Below are positions 4,882-24,509 of a stretch of 32,753 bases of DNA, in pieces; the first letter of the stretch is position 1, and every line of letters starts with the position of its first letter. The translations under genes and the position numbers were made by a program. The stretch covers positions 1 through 32,753 of the IMG/VR virus record IMGVR_UViG_3300041402_000666. One strand, written 5' to 3'. The DNA is from a virus. The notes beneath the pieces are model-generated. The model was not told the origin of the DNA. It saw only the letters and a program-made list of their open reading frames with translations, and made no database searches.

Positions 4882-5811
4882 TTATAATTGCGCTATCTTT
4901 ACGTTAGCGTGTTTGATAGTGAAATCATTGCCTCCAGTTAAGTTCCTAGCTGCCACGTGGATATAATCACCGGCTGTAAAGTCAAGTATTGATCCACTAC
5001 TAACCACCTGGAAATCGTTTACAGCCCCGGTTTTGGTTTGCGAATGGCATTTGACACACAATACCCCGTTTAAGTAAAAGGCGAATTCCCATACATCATT
5101 GGGATTTGATGGCGTAATACTAAAGCTGTAGGCTGACGTATATTTACCTGTTGCGCTTGGATCAGTAGCACGTAGATGCGACCCATGCTCCCCTACACTC
5201 GCACCATCATCGGCTACAAAAGCGGTGGCAATAACAAATGTATTGGTCGTCTGCTGCTCTATTACCCAAACACCATCGTAGCTTGTTGTCCCAGATATTG
5301 ATATTACTTCTCCATTAGCAAGCCCATGTCCAGCACAAGTGACCTCTGTTTTAGCTCCGCCGTTACTGGTTGCATACGCTGTTATAGCTAACTGTGAACC
5401 ATCTACAAATGACCAATCAGGGCTAACCTGACCTTCAATAAAACCTCTCAGGAGATGCCAGTCATTGGCGTCTTGTATGGGTGTGGCACCAGCGTTTGCA
5501 TTCATGTACATCTCCGCATAGTGGTGCCCTCGTAGTGATATCAATTGTTCGTTTCCCGCACCATCCTGAAAATAAAGATGATTATCGGACTTGGTATAAA
5601 CCTTGCCATGGTCAGCTACAGCTACCGGCGTGGTTATTTCATCAAGTTCCAGGTCATTGACATTCTTTAATGTTTGACCATTTATATCAACAAGCGCATT
5701 AGGTTTACCAAGTTCGTTTAGCAATATCTCATCATCACCGCTACTTTTGTGACGATGTTTGTGGGCAAGAAGCAATGCTCTGACTAAAGAGAGTTCTGTT
5801 GGCGTAACCAA
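4882..5811 (-). CDS. Tail fibre/adhesin-like structural protein
   Basis: 309 aa from a TTG start (no early ATG; GGGGG lies 8 nt upstream). The N-terminus carries HKHRHKSSGDDEILLNEL, close to the 'H..RH..GG.D.L.L' motif common in phage minor structural proteins. A linker (LKNVNDLELDEITTPVAVAD) follows, then a beta-rich region with CAGHGLANGEVISISGTTSY and TNTFVIATAF, resembling Ig-like or ubiquitin-like adhesin modules, and a C-terminal jelly-roll-like end. It lies next to another virion-type gene (stop adjacent to start). Likely exposed on the virion; whether on capsid or tail is open. Confidence 0.62.
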   Translation of the reverse strand: MVTPTELSLVRALLLAHKHRHKSSGDDEILLNELGKPNALVDINGQTLKNVNDLELDEITTPVAVADHGKVYTKSDNHLYFQDGAGNEQLISLRGHHYAEMYMNANAGATPIQDANDWHLLRGFIEGQVSPDWSFVDGSQLAITAYATSNGGAKTEVTCAGHGLANGEVISISGTTSYDGVWVIEQQTTNTFVIATAFVADDGASVGEHGSHLRATDPSATGKYTSAYSFSITPSNPNDVWEFAFYLNGVLCVKCHSQTKTGAVNDFQVVSSGSILDFTAGDYIHVAARNLTGGNDFTIKHANVKIAQL

Positions 5812-7736: not shown

Positions 7737-8699
7737 CTAGCTCATAACCGATGCGAAGTAAACACCCAGGTCGGCTCCTGTGACTTTGAAGTCGAACGCG
7801 TGTTTCCCTTTCAGGAAATCGCGGTCGCGGTCTTCCTGGACTGTTGGGATAATGTTCACAGTCAGGTCCGAATCGTCAATGTTCCAAGCGAAGGTATAAC
7901 CTGCCGCTGGTTCCCGCAAAGCGGGTCGTTCCGGAACATACAGAAGAAGTGCGTTCTTCCCCCAAACAAAAGCCTGAGTTGCAGAACTAGCCCCTTCCAG
8001 GGATGTTCGCTGGACACATTTCCCAATAAGAAGCTTTTCAATGTCCAGGGCTTCAGCGACTTGTTCCTGAGTCAGAATGCCGCGCCCGGTGTATTTATAC
8101 ATATCCAGGAGTAACGGGTGCCGGCGAAGTTTGCTGAAGACCTGTTTGCCGATTACCATGGTATTCGGTTCAACACCCGTATTCTGAAGGACCGTATCGC
8201 GATAAGTGTCAATATCATCGGGCGGATCCGAGTTATCGTAATCGTCCCAAGCGACGAAATCGGTTCCAACGGTTGGGTTCGTGTCCCATATTGAGCCCGC
8301 GAAGACTGCCGTAGCAATCTGAATTTCGCGGTTCAGCATGAATTGATGGGCCAACCATTCGGTTCCTGTTTCTTCCAGTTGGACAGCAACGTCCTGGTTC
8401 TTTTTGTCTTCCCAAGGTATCGCGTAGCCCAGGTGATAAATGTCGCAGTAATATTCGTCAGTCGAAAGCTTCATACGACCTTCGGGGTAAGTGTCCCCGG
8501 GTGTTCGGAGTTCAACCTGATTAGTCAACCAGGACCCCTTGTCCCAAACGTAGTATTTATCGCTTTGCTTTTCCACAGGGACTAACGGTAAGACCTGGTC
8601 AGCGATAAAGGTTTTATTCCGATACGCAATAGCGATTTCTGACAAGGCTGCATCAATATGAATATCGCCTGCGGTCGGATTGCCAAAATGTTGTTTCAT
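7737..8699 (-). CDS. Major capsid protein
   Basis: 320 aa, the usual size for HK97-fold capsid proteins without a delta domain. It begins MKQHFGNPTAGDIHIDAALS and continues with an 'ALSEIAIAYRNKTFIADQVL' segment typical of one common phage capsid family. Helical 'LNREIQIATAVF' and 'VIGKQVFSKLRRHP' segments resemble the E-loop-to-spine helix and P-domain of that family. It follows the protease/scaffold and decoration genes, with SD GAAGGGGG. A 70-bp gap to the next gene contains only that gene's SD region. Confidence 0.85.
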   Translation of the reverse strand: MKQHFGNPTAGDIHIDAALSEIAIAYRNKTFIADQVLPLVPVEKQSDKYYVWDKGSWLTNQVELRTPGDTYPEGRMKLSTDEYYCDIYHLGYAIPWEDKKNQDVAVQLEETGTEWLAHQFMLNREIQIATAVFAGSIWDTNPTVGTDFVAWDDYDNSDPPDDIDTYRDTVLQNTGVEPNTMVIGKQVFSKLRRHPLLLDMYKYTGRGILTQEQVAEALDIEKLLIGKCVQRTSLEGASSATQAFVWGKNALLLYVPERPALREPAAGYTFAWNIDDSDLTVNIIPTVQEDRDRDFLKGKHAFDFKVTGADLGVYFASVMS

Positions 8700-14869: not shown

Positions 14870-16081
14870 TCATTTCCTGAAAACTAATACATCCTCATGA
14901 TTGATTTGTTCCACGTCTGGGAATTTCTGATGATAAATTACTCGCCAGAACGACTGACCGGTTAGCTTGCGATAATGCCTTTCAACAAACTTAAACCCCG
15001 CCTGCTCACATAGCTTAATGGTATCAGTGTCTAGCCTGATTACTTGCTTGTTGCGGATAAAGTTTTTGGTAACTAGAATCATAAGACCACCATTCTTAAG
15101 CACGCTAAAGCACTGCTGATATACTTGGAGCATAGCTTCTAGGTAGAAGTCTGATTTGAGGTTGCCTATATTGGAAGGGTTATCTTCCATATACGCTATC
15201 GGTTTATGCCCTATGCCTCCGATTTGAGCGAATTTAGTGGTATCACCTATACGGTCATCGCTTCCTGTAGTCCCCTCATAAGGTGGGCTGGTGATTATGC
15301 TGTCAACTGGGTGATAACTCCAGTCTTGCTGTAAATTTCTCCCTTTACCCCCTTGATACTTCTTGGGGTCATAGCCAGCTTTCTTTAACCGTTCAGCCCT
15401 AGCTTCTTGCTTGCTATCGAGAACATCAACCGAGCCTTCGTATGGTGGGCTAGTAACTATCTTATCTATCTGACCATAGGGGAGATTGCCTATGTTATCA
15501 TCCCTCTCACCCGCAGTTCCTGATAACCTTGCACTTCTGCCAGGTATCAAATGCTCTAGCTCTGCAGGGTCATCTGTATGATGTGTTGTTTCAGCATAAG
15601 GTGGTGAAGTTATAATCTTATCAACTAATCCCTCAAGCTGGCGGGCATTCTTTAATGGCAATTTATTATGCCTGCGAATTGACTTTATAGTGGCAAAATC
15701 TAGTTTGGGATATTTAAGCCATAAGTCCTCGTAGGGATGCCTTCTTGCTCTCAATATATCTCTAGCATCACCCCACAGTATTGGGCATTCTCCCATCTTG
15801 TAACCCAGTTGGGGTTTCATATATACTAATTGACGATTATTTAATGCCATCCTGATAAATTTTTGCTCAAGCTCTACCAAGATGACATTCCTACCTACTG
15901 TGCAAGCCAGCATCGTAGTCCCGCTTCCAGCCATCGGGTCAAGGATAGTCTCACCTGCCTCTATGTACTTATCAACTATCCACAGTAAAAGCTGTGCATC
16001 CATTTTAGCCGGATGACTGAAGCTCTCAGGCACAAAGAACCGCTTCCTGAAGCTAGTGTCTCGTTTGAACTTAATCTTCAT
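14870..16081 (-). CDS. DNA amino-methyltransferase (N4-C or N6-A) with three TSPPY motifs
   Basis: 403 aa from ATG at 16081 (GGGG 7 nt upstream; an earlier ATG at 16108 overlaps terminase). FSHPAKMDAQLLLWIVDKY is motif X-like; ILDPMAGSGTTMLAC (about 47-60) is the SAM motif I. TSPPY, the catalytic motif IV, occurs three times, at about 158, 210 and 264, each preceded by an 'I(D/S)(K/S)II(T/V)' strand. Repeated NIGNL segments lie between them. The C-terminal half has a 'FSVLKNGGLMILVTKNFIR' methyltransferase strand. No partner nuclease is present, so self-protection against host restriction is likely. Confidence 0.85.
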   Translation of the reverse strand: MKIKFKRDTSFRKRFFVPESFSHPAKMDAQLLLWIVDKYIEAGETILDPMAGSGTTMLACTVGRNVILVELEQKFIRMALNNRQLVYMKPQLGYKMGECPILWGDARDILRARRHPYEDLWLKYPKLDFATIKSIRRHNKLPLKNARQLEGLVDKIITSPPYAETTHHTDDPAELEHLIPGRSARLSGTAGERDDNIGNLPYGQIDKIVTSPPYEGSVDVLDSKQEARAERLKKAGYDPKKYQGGKGRNLQQDWSYHPVDSIITSPPYEGTTGSDDRIGDTTKFAQIGGIGHKPIAYMEDNPSNIGNLKSDFYLEAMLQVYQQCFSVLKNGGLMILVTKNFIRNKQVIRLDTDTIKLCEQAGFKFVERHYRKLTGQSFWRVIYHQKFPDVEQINHEDVLVFRK

Positions 16082-16095
16082 AATTTCCCCATCGT

Positions 16096-17577
16096 TTATT
16101 CCCGCCACCGGGACCGCTTCCGTTCTACTTCAACGCCCTGGCGTAAGCCCTTCAACCTCGGCTTCAGGTACCGGAGTCCGTGGACGAGGACATCCACAAT
16201 ATCATCATGCGCACCGGCGGGGAAGTCCCCGACTTCCTTCAGGAAATCCGCCAGCCAAGTTGCATGCCGCGGGATAAGTACCTGACCAGCTTCCATGATT
16301 CCGGTTACAGTATGAGCCCGCGTGACCTTATCATCAACAGCCTTGACCGCCCGAATCGGGACCTTCGTGTCCTGGCGAAGCTGCTGGATAAGCGAAATGC
16401 CCGACGCTTTATCTTCAATGACAACGCGGTCGGGATTCCATTTATCATATTGGGCTTCGGCCGCACGGGTCAGGTCAGGGAATGTAGGTCTAGCAACGTA
16501 AAGGTCCAGAAGGTAATATCTCCTCGGCTTTGAAACAGTTCCCAGGGTTAGACACGCCGAACGGTCGTGCCGTTGCTTTTCCTTGTGGGCTGTATCCCAT
16601 ATCTGAATTAACCTGGAAAACGACCGGGGAAGGTCTTCGTCTTCATACGACTTGAACCAAGCTGTCTTGATTATACCGCCGCCTTCTGGTTGGGGCTTCC
16701 CGCGGTATTGTGCAGTCCACCAAAAGGGACCGGCAGCGACCCGAAGTTTCTTCAGGGCCGTTTCGTCATATCGTCCAGGCCAAAGGGCTTCCCCAGGCTT
16801 TCGCCCCAGGATGTCGTTTTCTTCAGCCAGAGCTGGAAAGTTTATGACTTGCCACGAATCAGGCTCGACTTCTTCTTCCAGGGTCAGTTCGCCTTCGTCT
16901 TCGGGCGGATTCCCCAACAAGGATCCCGCCAGGTCCTGTTCATGCCAGCGTGTCATAATCAGAATAATTGACCCACCGGGTTGAAGCCTGGGGCGGACGA
17001 CTGACCGATACCAGTTCCAGTTCCGACGCCGATACACTTCGGAAAGGGCTTCAGCATCGTTTTTAATCGGGTCGTCTATGATAATTAAATGGAAGCCCCG
17101 GCCGCTAAATGGTCCACCAATTCCCGCCGTAAACATGCCACCATTATAGCCACGAAGGGTCCAATGTCCCTTCGCTTTCGTATCCTGGCGAAGTTGAATC
17201 CCTAATTCATCGGCGTTTTCTGTAATAGAATCTTTCGCCTTGCCGCCCCACTCCGAAGCAAAATCTTTTTCATATGACGCCAGGCCAATCTTCTTCCAAG
17301 GGAACTTCTTCAAGAACCAAACGGCGGTCCAATGAGATACCAGTTCTGACTTTCCGTGTTGTGGCGGAATAGTGATTACTAGGAAGATGGGTTTTTCTGC
17401 ACACTCAGCAATTCGCTCCGCCAGGTAATCAATATGTCGAACCTGATCATAAGATCCATTCGATAAATGATTACCTAGTGTTGCCGGCGTCCTTGTCCAA
17501 TTGACAGTTTCCTCGGATCGCCTGATTTCGACGGCGCTGGCGGCATCTTTAAAGTGATATGGCGTTTTTGTTATCAT
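16096..17577 (-). CDS. terL: Terminase large subunit
   Basis: 493 aa. ATPase: Walker A-like PPQHGKSE (71-78), Walker B LIIIDDP (164-170), motif III MTRWHEQDL (209-217). Nuclease: IQIWDTAHKEKQ (D328), VVIEDKASG (E388, D389) and AHDDIVDVL (D458, D459), an RNase H-type active site. It packages DNA into the prohead through the portal. The start overlaps the C5 methyltransferase stop (ATGA) and a second methyltransferase follows, so the motor gene is sandwiched between two DNA-modifying enzymes. The packaging type cannot be read from the sequence alone. Confidence 0.95.
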   Translation of the reverse strand: MITKTPYHFKDAASAVEIRRSEETVNWTRTPATLGNHLSNGSYDQVRHIDYLAERIAECAEKPIFLVITIPPQHGKSELVSHWTAVWFLKKFPWKKIGLASYEKDFASEWGGKAKDSITENADELGIQLRQDTKAKGHWTLRGYNGGMFTAGIGGPFSGRGFHLIIIDDPIKNDAEALSEVYRRRNWNWYRSVVRPRLQPGGSIILIMTRWHEQDLAGSLLGNPPEDEGELTLEEEVEPDSWQVINFPALAEENDILGRKPGEALWPGRYDETALKKLRVAAGPFWWTAQYRGKPQPEGGGIIKTAWFKSYEDEDLPRSFSRLIQIWDTAHKEKQRHDRSACLTLGTVSKPRRYYLLDLYVARPTFPDLTRAAEAQYDKWNPDRVVIEDKASGISLIQQLRQDTKVPIRAVKAVDDKVTRAHTVTGIMEAGQVLIPRHATWLADFLKEVGDFPAGAHDDIVDVLVHGLRYLKPRLKGLRQGVEVERKRSRWRE

Positions 17578-18263
17578 TCAACCGCCTTCAATAAAAACTT
17601 CCCTATGTATTCGGTATAGGCTGGGGGGATTGCTTCCACGAGTTCTTTGGTAGTTTGCATCCAATCAATAGCCATAGCATTCATAAACCATTGCTTAAAA
17701 GTCCAGCCATTAGGCGGCGGTTTACCGCGACCAATACGCTTTCTTACCCTCTTCCCATCTTTGTCAATCTCTACATAACGCCTGCCCTTACTACCACTTC
17801 CATACACAGGAGCAAAGTCGGCATTTATAACGGTTCCCCAATGGTTACAACTGAAAGGTGAGAATGGTGGAGCTATATTCATCTCAAAATAACGATGACG
17901 AATAACATTTAATCCAAACATCGTTCCACACAATAGAAGTGAAGCAACCAAAGGAGCTTTCTGAACATTCTCAATTATGAATGGCTTGCTGGTCGCAACA
18001 AGTATAGTTCTTGTTGGCTGTATTAAGTCAGGATGGGTTGTCTCCCTAGCTACGTTATTATCAGTGAAAGCCTGGCAAGGCGGACTTGCGTGATAAGCAT
18101 CGTAACCTTCCAATGGAAACTCAAGGGCATCAGCTTGGTAGAACTTGAAGGGGTAATGGGGTTGCGGTTTGATGTCAACACCTTCTACTTCAAAGCCAGC
18201 ACGATGATAGCCCATACTGGCACCGCCGGCACCACAGAACAAATCTAACAACTTAGGTTTCAT
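17574..18263 (-). CDS. dcm: C5-cytosine DNA methyltransferase (phage orphan)
   Basis: 229 aa, shorter than typical M.HhaI-like enzymes (about 330). Motif I DLFCGAGGASMGYHRAGF (7-24), motif IV ASPPCQAF with the catalytic Cys (about 63), motif VI IIENV (96-100), and RHRYFE as motif VIII are all present. The target domain is short, with KGRRYVEIDKDGKRVRK. No restriction enzyme is nearby, so it probably protects phage DNA from host restriction. SD AAGGTGAA. It is preceded by 377 bp of palindrome-rich non-coding DNA. Confidence 0.9.
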   Translation of the reverse strand: MKPKLLDLFCGAGGASMGYHRAGFEVEGVDIKPQPHYPFKFYQADALEFPLEGYDAYHASPPCQAFTDNNVARETTHPDLIQPTRTILVATSKPFIIENVQKAPLVASLLLCGTMFGLNVIRHRYFEMNIAPPFSPFSCNHWGTVINADFAPVYGSGSKGRRYVEIDKDGKRVRKRIGRGKPPPNGWTFKQWFMNAMAIDWMQTTKELVEAIPPAYTEYIGKFLLKAVE

Positions 18264-18640: not shown

Positions 18641-18913
18641 TTAACTAGTCTCCTTTCGCTTGAAAAAGTCATCATAAGAAGATTGTAAATTTCGCCAGAA
18701 CTGCACACTAGTTCCGAAAGCATCACTAAGCATACAAGCCATCATCAGCGTTATTCTTCTTTTACCAGCTAAGGTTTCCTCCACTATCTTTAATGAGCAA
18801 TCCATTTCTCTAGCCAGTGTTTCCCTCGTCCAACCCCTTGCTTTGAGTTCATCTTCAATCAGTTCGCAAGGTGGGAAGATTTCTGCTGGTTTTCTTTCAT
18901 TCTCTTTTGACAT
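18641..18913 (-). CDS. HigA-like XRE transcription regulator
   Basis: 90 aa. EIFPPCELIEDELKARGWTR, then REMDCSLKIVEETLAGKRRI and ACMLSDAFGTSVQFWRNLQS match the HigA antitoxin/VapI pattern ('pGe.l.eel...g.s...lA..lgv....i..i..gkr.it...a..la..fgts..fW.nlq'). The helix-turn-helix covers about residues 25-60. No HigB toxin lies beside it; the neighbour upstream is another HTH gene. GGAG SD. Possibly the phage's regulatory switch or an antitoxin that neutralises a host toxin. Confidence 0.78.
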   Translation of the reverse strand: MSKENERKPAEIFPPCELIEDELKARGWTRETLAREMDCSLKIVEETLAGKRRITLMMACMLSDAFGTSVQFWRNLQSSYDDFFKRKETS

Positions 18914-22025: not shown

Positions 22026-22228
22026 TTCGGTATCTTCTTCCCGTCAGAGTCCCGTTTCCAAGGGAAGCCCCCCAGGACGTCACGTTTCCTGACAAGTGGT
22101 TTCGCACCCGGGACTCCGCGGCATACGGAGCAAACAGGTACATCATTAGACCAATCCTTTTCGATTCCGTCTACGAGCTCCAATCGTGCCATGCCTAATC
22201 CGCATTGTGAGCACACAATTATATCCAT
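22022..22228 (-). CDS. Small zinc-ribbon protein
   Basis: 68 aa from ATG at 22228 (GGGGG SD). DIIVCSQCGLGMARLEL and DVPVCSVCRGVPGAK supply two CxxC knuckles; the C-terminus is basic (VRKRDVLGGFPWKRD). It lies between the RuvC-like gene and a membrane protein. Possibly a nucleic-acid-binding helper. Confidence 0.6.
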   Translation of the reverse strand: MDIIVCSQCGLGMARLELVDGIEKDWSNDVPVCSVCRGVPGAKPLVRKRDVLGGFPWKRDSDGKKIPK

Positions 22229-22241
22229 GTTTATTCCCCCT

Positions 22242-22733
22242 TTACGCCATTGCTTCAAGCTTCCGGACGCCAGCATGATAAACGCCGATGGCGATGGCAT
22301 CGTATTCGTGACTAGTCAGATCATCAGGTATCGATTGAAAGCGAAGGCGAATATTGTTCTTTGTGATTTCCTTCGATGCCGCCCGGTGACCGACGACAGC
22401 ATTCTTCCAAGTCGCTGGATTGATGGCGGTAATTGGGAAACCTGAAGTCTTCGCGTAATCTTGTATAGACTTATACGCAACCTGGAGCCCGGCTATATTC
22501 CGGTTGCGATTCTTAGAATGCCAGGCAAACCTTACGTCCTCGATTACGATTGCTTCAAAGCGATAATTCATATAAGCCTCAGCTATACCCGAGACAATAC
22601 GGGCAAACCGAGAACCGTATTCGACTTTCGCCACGTCTATCTTCCCCCAGGTAATCAGGGATTCACCCTGAAAGATAGCCCAACCCGTAACCGTAGAAGA
22701 TGGGTCAATTGATATGAATCGAAGCGTACTCAT
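22242..22733 (-). CDS. ruvC: RuvC-like Holliday junction resolvase
   Basis: 163 aa from ATG at 22733, which overlaps the initiator's stop (ATGA). The RNase H-fold acidic residues are visible: D10 in FISIDPSSTVTGWA, E65 in AIVIEDVRFA, and D145 in SHEYDAIAIG. The KNRNRNIAGLQVAYKSI helix and NPATWKNAVVG segment are also typical of RuvC. It cuts branched DNA, here probably to clear replication or recombination junctions before packaging. Confidence 0.85.
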   Translation of the reverse strand: MSTLRFISIDPSSTVTGWAIFQGESLITWGKIDVAKVEYGSRFARIVSGIAEAYMNYRFEAIVIEDVRFAWHSKNRNRNIAGLQVAYKSIQDYAKTSGFPITAINPATWKNAVVGHRAASKEITKNNIRLRFQSIPDDLTSHEYDAIAIGVYHAGVRKLEAMA

Positions 22734-23422
22734 AATATAGCTTCTTCCTTTCGGATCGGCGCAACATGGCATTCGAATGAAATTGGGGAATCTCCTATTA
22801 CACTGATCAGGGTCTTTTCGATAAGCGACCGTTGGTTTTGGTTCAAGTATTCAGCAATAAAGGCATTCTTCGCTCCGCAAATGAAGACTTCGCCGTTAAA
22901 TGATAGCGGTACGATATCCTTCAACCAGGTTCGGTAGTTTGCTTTATTTATCTGATAGCTTAAAGATTCCAAAACACTAGTCCATATATTATCTAAATCT
23001 ATATCTAAATATTTATTCTTTAAGGGTTTTTCTTTAGGGGTGTTCTTAGTCACATATGGGCGGGTACCGATATCGGTATCCAATGGTACCGATTGCCTAT
23101 ATTTACGTTCATTTTCTGGCCAAATATTCAACAGATGTATAATGTGGCGAGGGTGCCCTTCAAAGGATTCCAATTTTATCTCGATAATCTTAGCTTCGAT
23201 AAGTTCCCGCTTTGCCTTGACTACCGTCTTCGGACTGAAACCGCAATGTTTAGCCAGTTGATCTTGAGTCTTCCAGCAAAAGCCTTCTTCACCAGTAACC
23301 CGCTTCAGATGAAGGTAAAGGGTTTTTGCCTGGGGCGATAACTTAGCATCGTCAATCATGTGCGGTATCATTGAAAAGAAGCTGATAGGAGCATTATCTA
23401 AAATTCCCTTCTTATCGCTCAT
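22730..23422 (-). CDS. Replication initiator: HTH plus DnaA domain I
   Basis: 230 aa. The N-terminal half (LSPQAKTLYLHLKRVTGEEG; WKTQDQLAKHCGFSPKTVV) is a winged HTH of the helix_turn_helix_36 type. After a linker rich in Lys and Asp, IWTSVLESLSYQINKANYRT, WLKDIVPLSFNGEVFICGAK and NAFIAEYLNQNQRSLIEKTL match the DnaA N-terminal domain ('W..vl..l...is...f.tWl..i.p......l.l.vPn.f...wl...y...i'). AAA+ and DnaA domain IV are absent. DnaA domain I recruits helicase, so this protein may load the host DnaB. AT-rich and palindromic DNA inside the linker may be the origin. Confidence 0.78.
   Translation of the reverse strand: MSDKKGILDNAPISFFSMIPHMIDDAKLSPQAKTLYLHLKRVTGEEGFCWKTQDQLAKHCGFSPKTVVKAKRELIEAKIIEIKLESFEGHPRHIIHLLNIWPENERKYRQSVPLDTDIGTRPYVTKNTPKEKPLKNKYLDIDLDNIWTSVLESLSYQINKANYRTWLKDIVPLSFNGEVFICGAKNAFIAEYLNQNQRSLIEKTLISVIGDSPISFECHVAPIRKEEAIL
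22983..23093. other. Candidate replication origin inside the initiator gene
   Basis: Within the linker coding region lie two GGTACCGAT direct repeats (23063-23071, 23085-23093) and an inverted copy that forms the 14-bp palindrome TACCGATATCGGTA (23065-23078). Next to them is a strongly AT-rich stretch (22983-23022) with ATCTAAAT twice. Iterons beside an AT-rich segment inside the initiator gene is the layout of lambda O/ori. The sequence features are seen; origin function is inferred. Confidence 0.5.
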
Positions 23423-23789
23423 ACATGATCTCAGCTGGCCGATTTTTCTTGACAGAGTTACAATGGCGACAACACGGAACTAGATTACATAACTCATCGG
23501 TTCCCCCTTTCGATCTGGGTATGACATGATCAATGGAAAATGATTGCCACGGTTTCAGGATTTCCTGACAATACCAACACTTACCCCCCGTCTTATCCCA
23601 AACGGCTTGTCTCGTGGCATTATTAAACCGACGGGGAGTTACTTCTTCGGCCCTGGATATCGGCGAACTTTCCCGAAAAACAATACCTTTATCCCAAACA
23701 ATTTCGTCAATGAATAAGGGGCAACGTTCGTTTAATCTATATTTATATCCGCCGAAGGGGCCTCTAATCCAAACTTTACGGGCCCCCAT
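23412..23789 (-). CDS. HNH endonuclease
   Basis: 125 aa. TGGKCWYCQEILKPWQSFSI, then DHVIPRSKGGTDELCNLVPC and CRHCNSVKKNR form a complete HNH domain with two CxxC zinc knuckles and the catalytic DH pair plus N and H of the fold. The N-terminal part (KVWIRGPFGGYKYRLN) is of unknown role. It overlaps the initiator by 11 nt. Here, in the early region, it is more likely a homing-type or replication-linked nuclease than the terminase-associated HNH found beside terL in many phages. Confidence 0.85.
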   Translation of the reverse strand: MGARKVWIRGPFGGYKYRLNERCPLFIDEIVWDKGIVFRESSPISRAEEVTPRRFNNATRQAVWDKTGGKCWYCQEILKPWQSFSIDHVIPRSKGGTDELCNLVPCCRHCNSVKKNRPAEIMYER

Positions 23790-23792
23790 TCG

Positions 23793-24509
23793 TTATTCCC
23801 CCTTACTAGTATTTTTCTTCCCCTTTTCACCACGGGCGCCGTCGTTGAACGAACCGACCTGAAGAACCCGAATTAAATTATTCCCTTCCGGCGATGATTC
23901 CAATTTTTCAAGCGCGGCTATTGCCTCGAAAGGTTCCTTAATGTTACCGGGAAGAATACTAACTACGCTATCCATGACCGCTTCTGTCGCATTCAAACCG
24001 CGGCTGGCGATGCTATGGATTTCACCCGTACTATCGGTGACATAATCAATGGCAACACCGAACGGCTTTTCTTCTTTTTCAAAATGTTTGAATGTAGCCG
24101 TATAAATCTTTGTCACCCTCGGTAATTTCTCCTCTGGTTCTTCCCGGGACTTGTTAGAATCCTTCGACGTGCTGGGGTCAAGTTGAACTTCGGTTTGGGA
24201 TTGTAAGATTTCAAAGTGGATTTGTTTCGCATCAAACTTGAAATCTAGTGCCGATTGCGGACTTCCGATTATCGCGTACAAAGCACCGTGGGGTTGCTTC
24301 AAAAGGTTTACCAGGCGGAATACTTCGAACTGATCAACCTTCGCCTTGAACTGGATTTGGATTATCAGGTTCCCATCAGAATCGGTGCCAATCGCCTGTT
24401 TTAGATCTGTAATAGCCGGGAAACTAATTTCAACCCGGAGCGGTTTCGTAGCTTCAGCCGTTATACCTTTAGACTCGGACTTGCCTTTAGGTTGGTCTTT
24501 TTTGGCCAT
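23793..24509 (-). CDS. Early protein of unknown function
   Basis: 238 aa. Lys/Ser-rich ends flank a beta-rich centre (LRVEISFPAITDLKQAIG; NLIIQIQFKAKVDQFEVFRL; KIYTATFKHFEKEEKPFGVA). The C-terminus (GEKGKKNTSKGE) is charged and flexible, as in single-strand-binding and recombination accessory proteins, but no family is recognised. It lies between the RHH gene and HNH gene with SD AAAGGGGG. A ssDNA-binding role is only a guess from context. Confidence 0.6.
   Translation of the reverse strand: MAKKDQPKGKSESKGITAEATKPLRVEISFPAITDLKQAIGTDSDGNLIIQIQFKAKVDQFEVFRLVNLLKQPHGALYAIIGSPQSALDFKFDAKQIHFEILQSQTEVQLDPSTSKDSNKSREEPEEKLPRVTKIYTATFKHFEKEEKPFGVAIDYVTDSTGEIHSIASRGLNATEAVMDSVVSILPGNIKEPFEAIAALEKLESSPEGNNLIRVLQVGSFNDGARGEKGKKNTSKGE

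Follow-up and report, generated by a model that had tools for sequence, protein, structure and literature searches.

The window, by which we mean the whole stretch of 32,753 nucleotides analysed here, is a linear IMG/VR virus fragment of 32,753 bp with its recognisable genes on the minus strand. Of particular interest is the gene for a presumed replication initiator (Table 1), which PHROGs labels as a replication initiation / O-like protein and which is flanked upstream by an HNH endonuclease gene and downstream by a gene for a RuvC-like Holliday junction resolvase; no helicase-loader gene lies between the initiator and the resolvase. Elsewhere in the record, two DNA methyltransferase genes with a possible anti-restriction role lie near the terminase (14870-16108 and 17574-18263), and 18641-18913 encodes a small HTH protein with similarity to phrog_1381 (2.2e-13), a PHROG of antitoxin type. 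A host was sought among genome contigs; the terminase gave a single distant match (35% identity) and the N-terminal part of the initiator gave none.

Table 1. Features of the initiator locus; all coordinates refer to the window.
Feature	Position	Strand	Details
HNH endonuclease gene, next upstream of the initiator	23412-23789	(-)	Pfam/PHROGs matches
Initiator gene	22730-23422	(-)	230 aa: HTH_36, predicted disordered linker, DnaA domain I
HTH_36 / winged-helix DNA-binding domain, codons 27-80	23183-23344	(-)	PF13730, 4.7e-13, 49.2 bits (gathering cut-off 25)
Linker, codons 99-142, predicted disordered; holds the putative origin	22997-23128	(-)	pLDDT <50, residues 99-140
Half-site 1 (iteron)	23085-23093		coding strand ATCGGTACC; exact GGTACCGAT on (+)
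Half-site 2, inverted	23072-23081		coding strand GGATACCGAT; inverted GGTACCGAT with one mismatch (GATACCGAT) at 23072-23080
Half-site 3	23063-23071		coding strand ATCGGTACC; exact GGTACCGAT on (+); makes a 14-bp palindrome with half-site 2
Second element, DNA for TKNTPKEKPLKN	23015-23050	(-)	A-rich, AAAGAA/ACCC repeats; unusually high conservation at synonymous sites among the four A genes
AT-rich stretch, putative unwinding region	22983-23036		3' side of the half-sites on the coding strand
DnaA domain I (DnaA_N), codons 145-203, putative helicase-recruiting module	22814-22990	(-)	PF11638, 35.5 bits (cut-off 24.6)
RuvC-like Holliday junction resolvase gene, next downstream of the initiator	22242-22772	(-)

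Only two Pfam domains, HTH_36 (the same domain as pfam13730 below) and DnaA_N, rise above their cut-offs in the initiator. Its structure was modelled with AlphaFold2 from six sequences (mean pLDDT 59.9); the model has a winged helix at the N-terminal end and a C-terminal domain with a pLDDT of about 80, joined by the low-confidence linker. In comparisons with VIA-align, the C-terminal domain fits B. subtilis DnaA domain I (PDB 4tps_B) with a Z of 13.8 and an rmsd of 1.7 over 82 aligned residues. The N-terminal domain is best matched by the corresponding domain of the Geobacillus primosomal protein DnaB (5wtn, Z 11.4); it also matches the RepA_N-type Rep N-terminal domain, both in a Rep-DNA complex (4pql, Z 8.5) and as an initiator N-domain (5kbj, Z 8.1), as well as the N-terminal domain of B. 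subtilis DnaD (2v79, Z 7.5). An earlier note had described the protein as having HTH and DnaA-like domains, and both parts are borne out by Pfam and by the folds, except that the DnaA part consists of domain I only: Pfam finds neither an AAA+ ATPase nor a DnaA-box-binding domain here, and a protein without domains III and IV would fall outside the DnaA initiator family. The match to Phage_rep_O (PF04492) is below threshold, at 14.8 bits vs. a cut-off of 28.7, and a RepA_N domain is absent among Pfam matches up to an E of 0.1, the resemblance there being one of fold only. Judged by sequence, then, the initiator belongs to none of the lambda O, RepA_N and DnaA families.

The coding strand of the linker reads ATCGGTACC-att-GGATACCGAT-ATCGGTACC between 23063 and 23093, which amounts to three half-sites of the form ATCGGTA(T)CC, alternating in orientation. 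The two repeat copies and the inverted copy with its 14-bp palindrome, as first described in the earlier note, are all present, and the palindrome (TACCGATATCGGTA, 23065-23078) is perfect. Going toward the 3' end of the gene, the half-sites are followed by the A-rich second element and the AT-rich stretch. The nearly all-A/T character claimed for this DNA is likewise correct: the 50-mer at 22987-23036, which abuts the half-sites, is 84% A/T, the highest value among all 50-mers of the 32,753 bases. The surroundings, said to be at roughly 50% GC, actually measure 40-43% in 500-bp windows.

The repeats of the window gene are marginal by themselves, since 14 of 300 synonymous-codon shuffles reach their density. 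Words like GGTACCGAT with at most one mismatch are common throughout the window (25 seen vs. 6.2 expected), forming a cluster only in the linker. With ATCGGT, a motif taken from the relatives, the linker is the sole place in the window with at least three copies within 60 bp, and such a cluster turned up anywhere in only 3 of 400 simulated windows. Without its relatives, the window would make a weak case for an origin.

Related phages were fetched by scans with the window's terminase and RuvC proteins; phage and plasmid tblastn gave weak matches only, to the DnaA domain part. The initiators of these phages combine two N-termini with two C-termini. N-terminus A is the HTH_36 domain of the window, 82-86% identical to that of three others across 105 residues, and neither a scan of viral contigs with it nor one with the initiator protein alone added a further phage of this type; N-terminus B is unrelated and matches no Pfam family, and PHROGs groups it with DnaD-like loaders and replication initiators. 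At the other end, the DnaA_N domain of the window is 53-61% identical to those of two relatives, while C2 is helical and about 110 residues long, and Foldseek, run on the L009 model, finds no known fold for it at E <0.001. All four combinations are present: A with DnaA_N in the window, A with C2 in L045, L046 and L047, B with DnaA_N in L044 and L051, and B with C2 in L009, L011, L012 and L024. This alone shows recombination near the linker, and judged from the mosaic these phages have exchanged both ends of the initiator gene around it, as modules. L119, which by eye looked like a further carrier of DnaA_N, is not supported as such by Pfam. L149, with an initiator spanning the match at 5001, has a third N-terminus, by eye unlike A or B, joined to C2 through a linker with the peptide TETTSEITTETT, which makes a further combination of modules.

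Were the HTH domain to bind the linker repeats, the type of site would have to change with the N-terminus, whichever C-terminus is attached. This is the pattern seen. Linkers of the A genes hold 3 (window), 4 (L045), 4 (L046) and 5 (L047) copies of ATCGGT, as against 0 (L044), 0 (L051), 1 (L009), 0 (L011), 0 (L012) and 0 (L024) in the B genes, whose sites are instead palindromes of the form KGTCAAnTTGACM, such as GTGTCAACTTGACAC. The motif KGTCAA is found 5 times each in L044 and L051, 4 times in L009, 3 in L011, 5 in L012 and 6 in L024, vs. 0 in the window and L047 and 1 each in L045 and L046. Site type thus agrees with the HTH in all ten genes (4/4 A and 6/6 B) and never the C-terminus, each type being spread over both C-termini. 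The ten core initiators are not independent events, as they come from related phages found through the window's own genes. At several half-sites L047 has ATCGGTTTCC (or the complement) and L045 has ATCGGTATCC (or the complement), which looks like concerted change. One feature of the window is weakly developed among the B+C2 relatives, where gene maxima of AT richness are 58-68%.

The same co-segregation would be expected if the half-sites were an operator for repression or other control of initiator transcription by the initiator itself, and inverted half-sites beside the gene of an HTH protein are typical of operators. Such an operator would have to act from inside the coding sequence, some 330 bp past the start codon, in a region (22200-23900) where no promoter-like site is listed on the minus strand, only plus-strand ones at about chance level; it would also have no need for the adjoining AT-rich tract or for synonymous constraint extending beyond the sites. 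We regard it as quite improbable in place of an origin, though the half-sites may serve both roles.

Still less probable is that the repeats are a by-product of a repetitive, low-complexity linker protein and have no function as DNA. The marginal shuffle result for the window gene would allow this, as would the predicted disorder of the linker. However, repeat density exceeds that of all 300 protein-preserving shuffles in six of the ten core genes, all six of them relatives of the window (the other marginal ones are L051, L012 and L024, in which 10, 3 and 18 of 300 shuffles reach it); the half-sites occur in both orientations, so that the peptide is not simply repeated; and the type of site follows the HTH while the peptide changes. 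Least probable of all is that the linker DNA is conserved mainly as a junction at which modules are exchanged by recombination, as the meeting of all four combinations at the linker and a 12-bp array (below) common to many phages with differing N- and C-termini might suggest, for a junction should be conserved across partners, yet the sites change according to the HTH rather than its partner, and exchange would be expected at an origin-bearing linker in any case.

A wider set of initiators comes from a scan with N-terminus B, which confirmed 101 loci; 80 of these were taken, and 69 were left after removal of near-duplicates. Linker repeats were counted as significant where no more than 1 of 100 synonymous shuffles attained the density of the gene; by this measure 47 of these 69 type-B-like initiators pass and 22 do not, vs. 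12 passes among 151 control ORFs from the same loci. In all 47 significant initiators the densest 100 bp begins between -15 and +60 codons from the estimated end of the HTH.

Beside the sites lies the second element, where synonymous sites are constrained among the four A genes: identical residues have identical codons in 51 of 59 cases, vs. 334 of 529 in the HTH region, and none of 98 HTH windows of equal size reaches this codon identity. At the corresponding place the B family has a 12-bp array (consensus ACAGAGAnTACt, 2-4 copies) encoding peptides like PETTTENTTE; CAGAGA occurs in 49 of the 69 B-family genes, with 111 copies vs. 21 expected from synonymous shuffles. The array pattern is found in at least 120 stretches of viral contigs. 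Among the 80 array loci listed, taking the longest frame at each locus as that of the array, the reading frame is the same in 80 of 80, and 100 or more codons lie upstream in 74. The array, with a peptide like TETTTENTTE, is seen in initiator linkers of L153-L232 and L059-L138, which have various N- and C-termini. No account of this linker peptide came up in the open-access library searched. The array is thus kept at the DNA level while the iterons differ, and the natural guess is that it acts as an unwinding or loading element.

Other signals that might mark an origin or a regulatory site contribute little. Cumulative GC skew, which the earlier note had put forward as a check, drops nearly throughout the window, with a detrended minimum at 22264, and is uninformative, its range being as large in 41% of block shuffles. 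An origin built on DnaA boxes can be set aside: the single TTWTNCACA match in the window, below chance expectation, is at 8569, with none near the linker. No RNA element was matched in Rfam and no terminator-like site was found; as RNA, 22980-23110 folds with only mild stability (z -2.09).

The arrangement has several parallels among known replicons. According to PMC7466680, the O gene of lambda and of the Stx phages P27 and 933W carries iterons together with an AT-rich tract midway along its length, and the iteron number varies among relatives and alters protein length. The window gene likewise has its iterons and AT-rich tract in the middle; unlike those of lambda O, its half-sites are about 9-10 bp long and alternate in orientation, its N-terminus is HTH_36 and its C-terminus DnaA domain I. 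In the RepA_N plasmid pSK41, according to PMC5703833, the origin lies in the rep linker, the N-terminus binds there and the C-terminus recruits host DnaG, while the chimeric rep of pPR9 has a pfam13730 HTH and origin region in place of the RepA_N part and still replicates. The putative origin of the window is also in a linker, next to a winged helix similar in fold to 4pql and 5kbj, but here the replicon is a phage rather than a plasmid, the C-terminus is DnaA domain I and there is no RepA_N match in Pfam. SPP1, as outlined in PMC6316719, has oriL inside gene 38 (gp38); it supplies its own loader gp39 and helicase gp40, whereas the window record showed no DnaC/IstB-like loader and no DnaB-type helicase. 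The repeated sites of the window lie in coding sequence between the DNA-binding and C-terminal domains, binding being suggested by their co-segregation with the HTH, and they adjoin an AT-rich region; from its sequence the candidate origin is thus of the iteron-in-initiator kind seen in lambda O, SPP1 oriL and pSK41 rep.

The resemblance to DnaA at oriC lies in domain I. The roles of residues W6, N44 and F46 of E. coli DnaA domain I are treated in PMC5448010, and by alignment all three phage DnaA_N proteins retain their equivalents. As for the residues contacting DnaB, the F46 equivalent is kept and that of E21 is Asn in all three. Unlike DnaA, the phage protein has no AAA+ domain, no DnaA-box domain and no nearby DnaA box, and its domain I is C-terminal. 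In the open-access library searched we recognised no account of phage initiators with DnaA domain I, or of a natural two-by-two exchange of this kind; the architecture itself is already catalogued, given that a PHROGs replication family, phrog_26369, matches the DnaA domain I part of the window initiator.

A gene for a DnaB-type helicase was found in none of ten records, which points to probable use of the host helicase, these being linear fragments outside which such a gene could lie. The same applies to the loader: no DnaC/IstB-like one was found in the window record, itself a linear fragment. Of the close C2 records, 6 of 7 have a DnaC/IstB-like AAA+ gene (phrog_50) after the initiator, vs. 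0 of 3 DnaA_N records, and the figures become 6 of 10 vs. 0 of 3 when distant C2 contigs are included; the loader is absent in the searched stretches of C2 contigs G007, L081/L148, L084/L150 and L149, the last three being more distant. A strict rule by which C2 requires a phage loader and DnaA domain I does not is broken by these four loader-less cases, and the association of C2 with a loader is suggestive only. Directly after its C2-type initiator, L084 (5881-6360) has a gene for a stand-alone DnaA domain IV (Bac_DnaA_C, 3.4e-17), that is, a phage-encoded DnaA-box-binding domain without the remainder of DnaA.

Taken together, these observations favor the proposal of the earlier note, which had likened the locus to lambda O: we put at about 0.87 the probability that 22983-23093 is a phage replication origin within the linker DNA of its own initiator gene. 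The main support comes from the ten related initiators, in all of which the site type goes with the HTH whatever the C-terminus; the synonymous constraint beside the sites, the predicted disorder of the linker and the RuvC and HNH neighbors are in keeping with it. On the other side are the marginal repeats of the window, the uninformative GC skew, the GGTACCGAT-like words found window-wide, the 22 of 69 wider initiators without significant repeats and the lack of conservation at the E21 equivalent.

At such an origin, the HTH_36 winged helix would bind the alternating ATCGGTA(T)CC half-sites, probably as dimers on the inverted pairs, and assembly of the initiator there would open the adjoining AT-rich stretch. 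The many copies of DnaA domain I thereby gathered at the opened origin could bring in the replicative helicase of the host, in the manner of DnaA at oriC, and loading would fall to the loader that the host normally employs. Some relatives join this N-terminus and its sites to C2, mostly with a phage DnaC-like loader. Since one N-terminus with its sites is found joined to either C-terminus, the linker origin would also serve as the hinge for module exchange. A more general picture, which we offer tentatively and consider somewhat short of an even chance, is that these initiators are three-part cassettes, combining a DNA-binding domain and the iterons that belong to it, a linker melting array conserved at the DNA level, and an exchangeable helicase-recruiting end. 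The end in the window would be a captured DnaA domain I that draws the host helicase directly, making a phage loader needless, and the ACAGAGAnTACt array and the AAAGAA/ACCC repeats would be a strand-specific melting or loading element.

The comparison would place the origin of an uncultured phage group within about 110 bp. The natural domain swaps separate DNA recognition from helicase recruitment, and so allow one to ask whether DnaA domain I, tethered by another HTH, suffices for recruiting the host helicase. A simple comparative test for origins in uncultured phages also follows, which is to look in the disordered linker of the initiator gene for repeats matched to the HTH. The 12-bp array may itself be a general element of origins, one that can be recognised in many phages.
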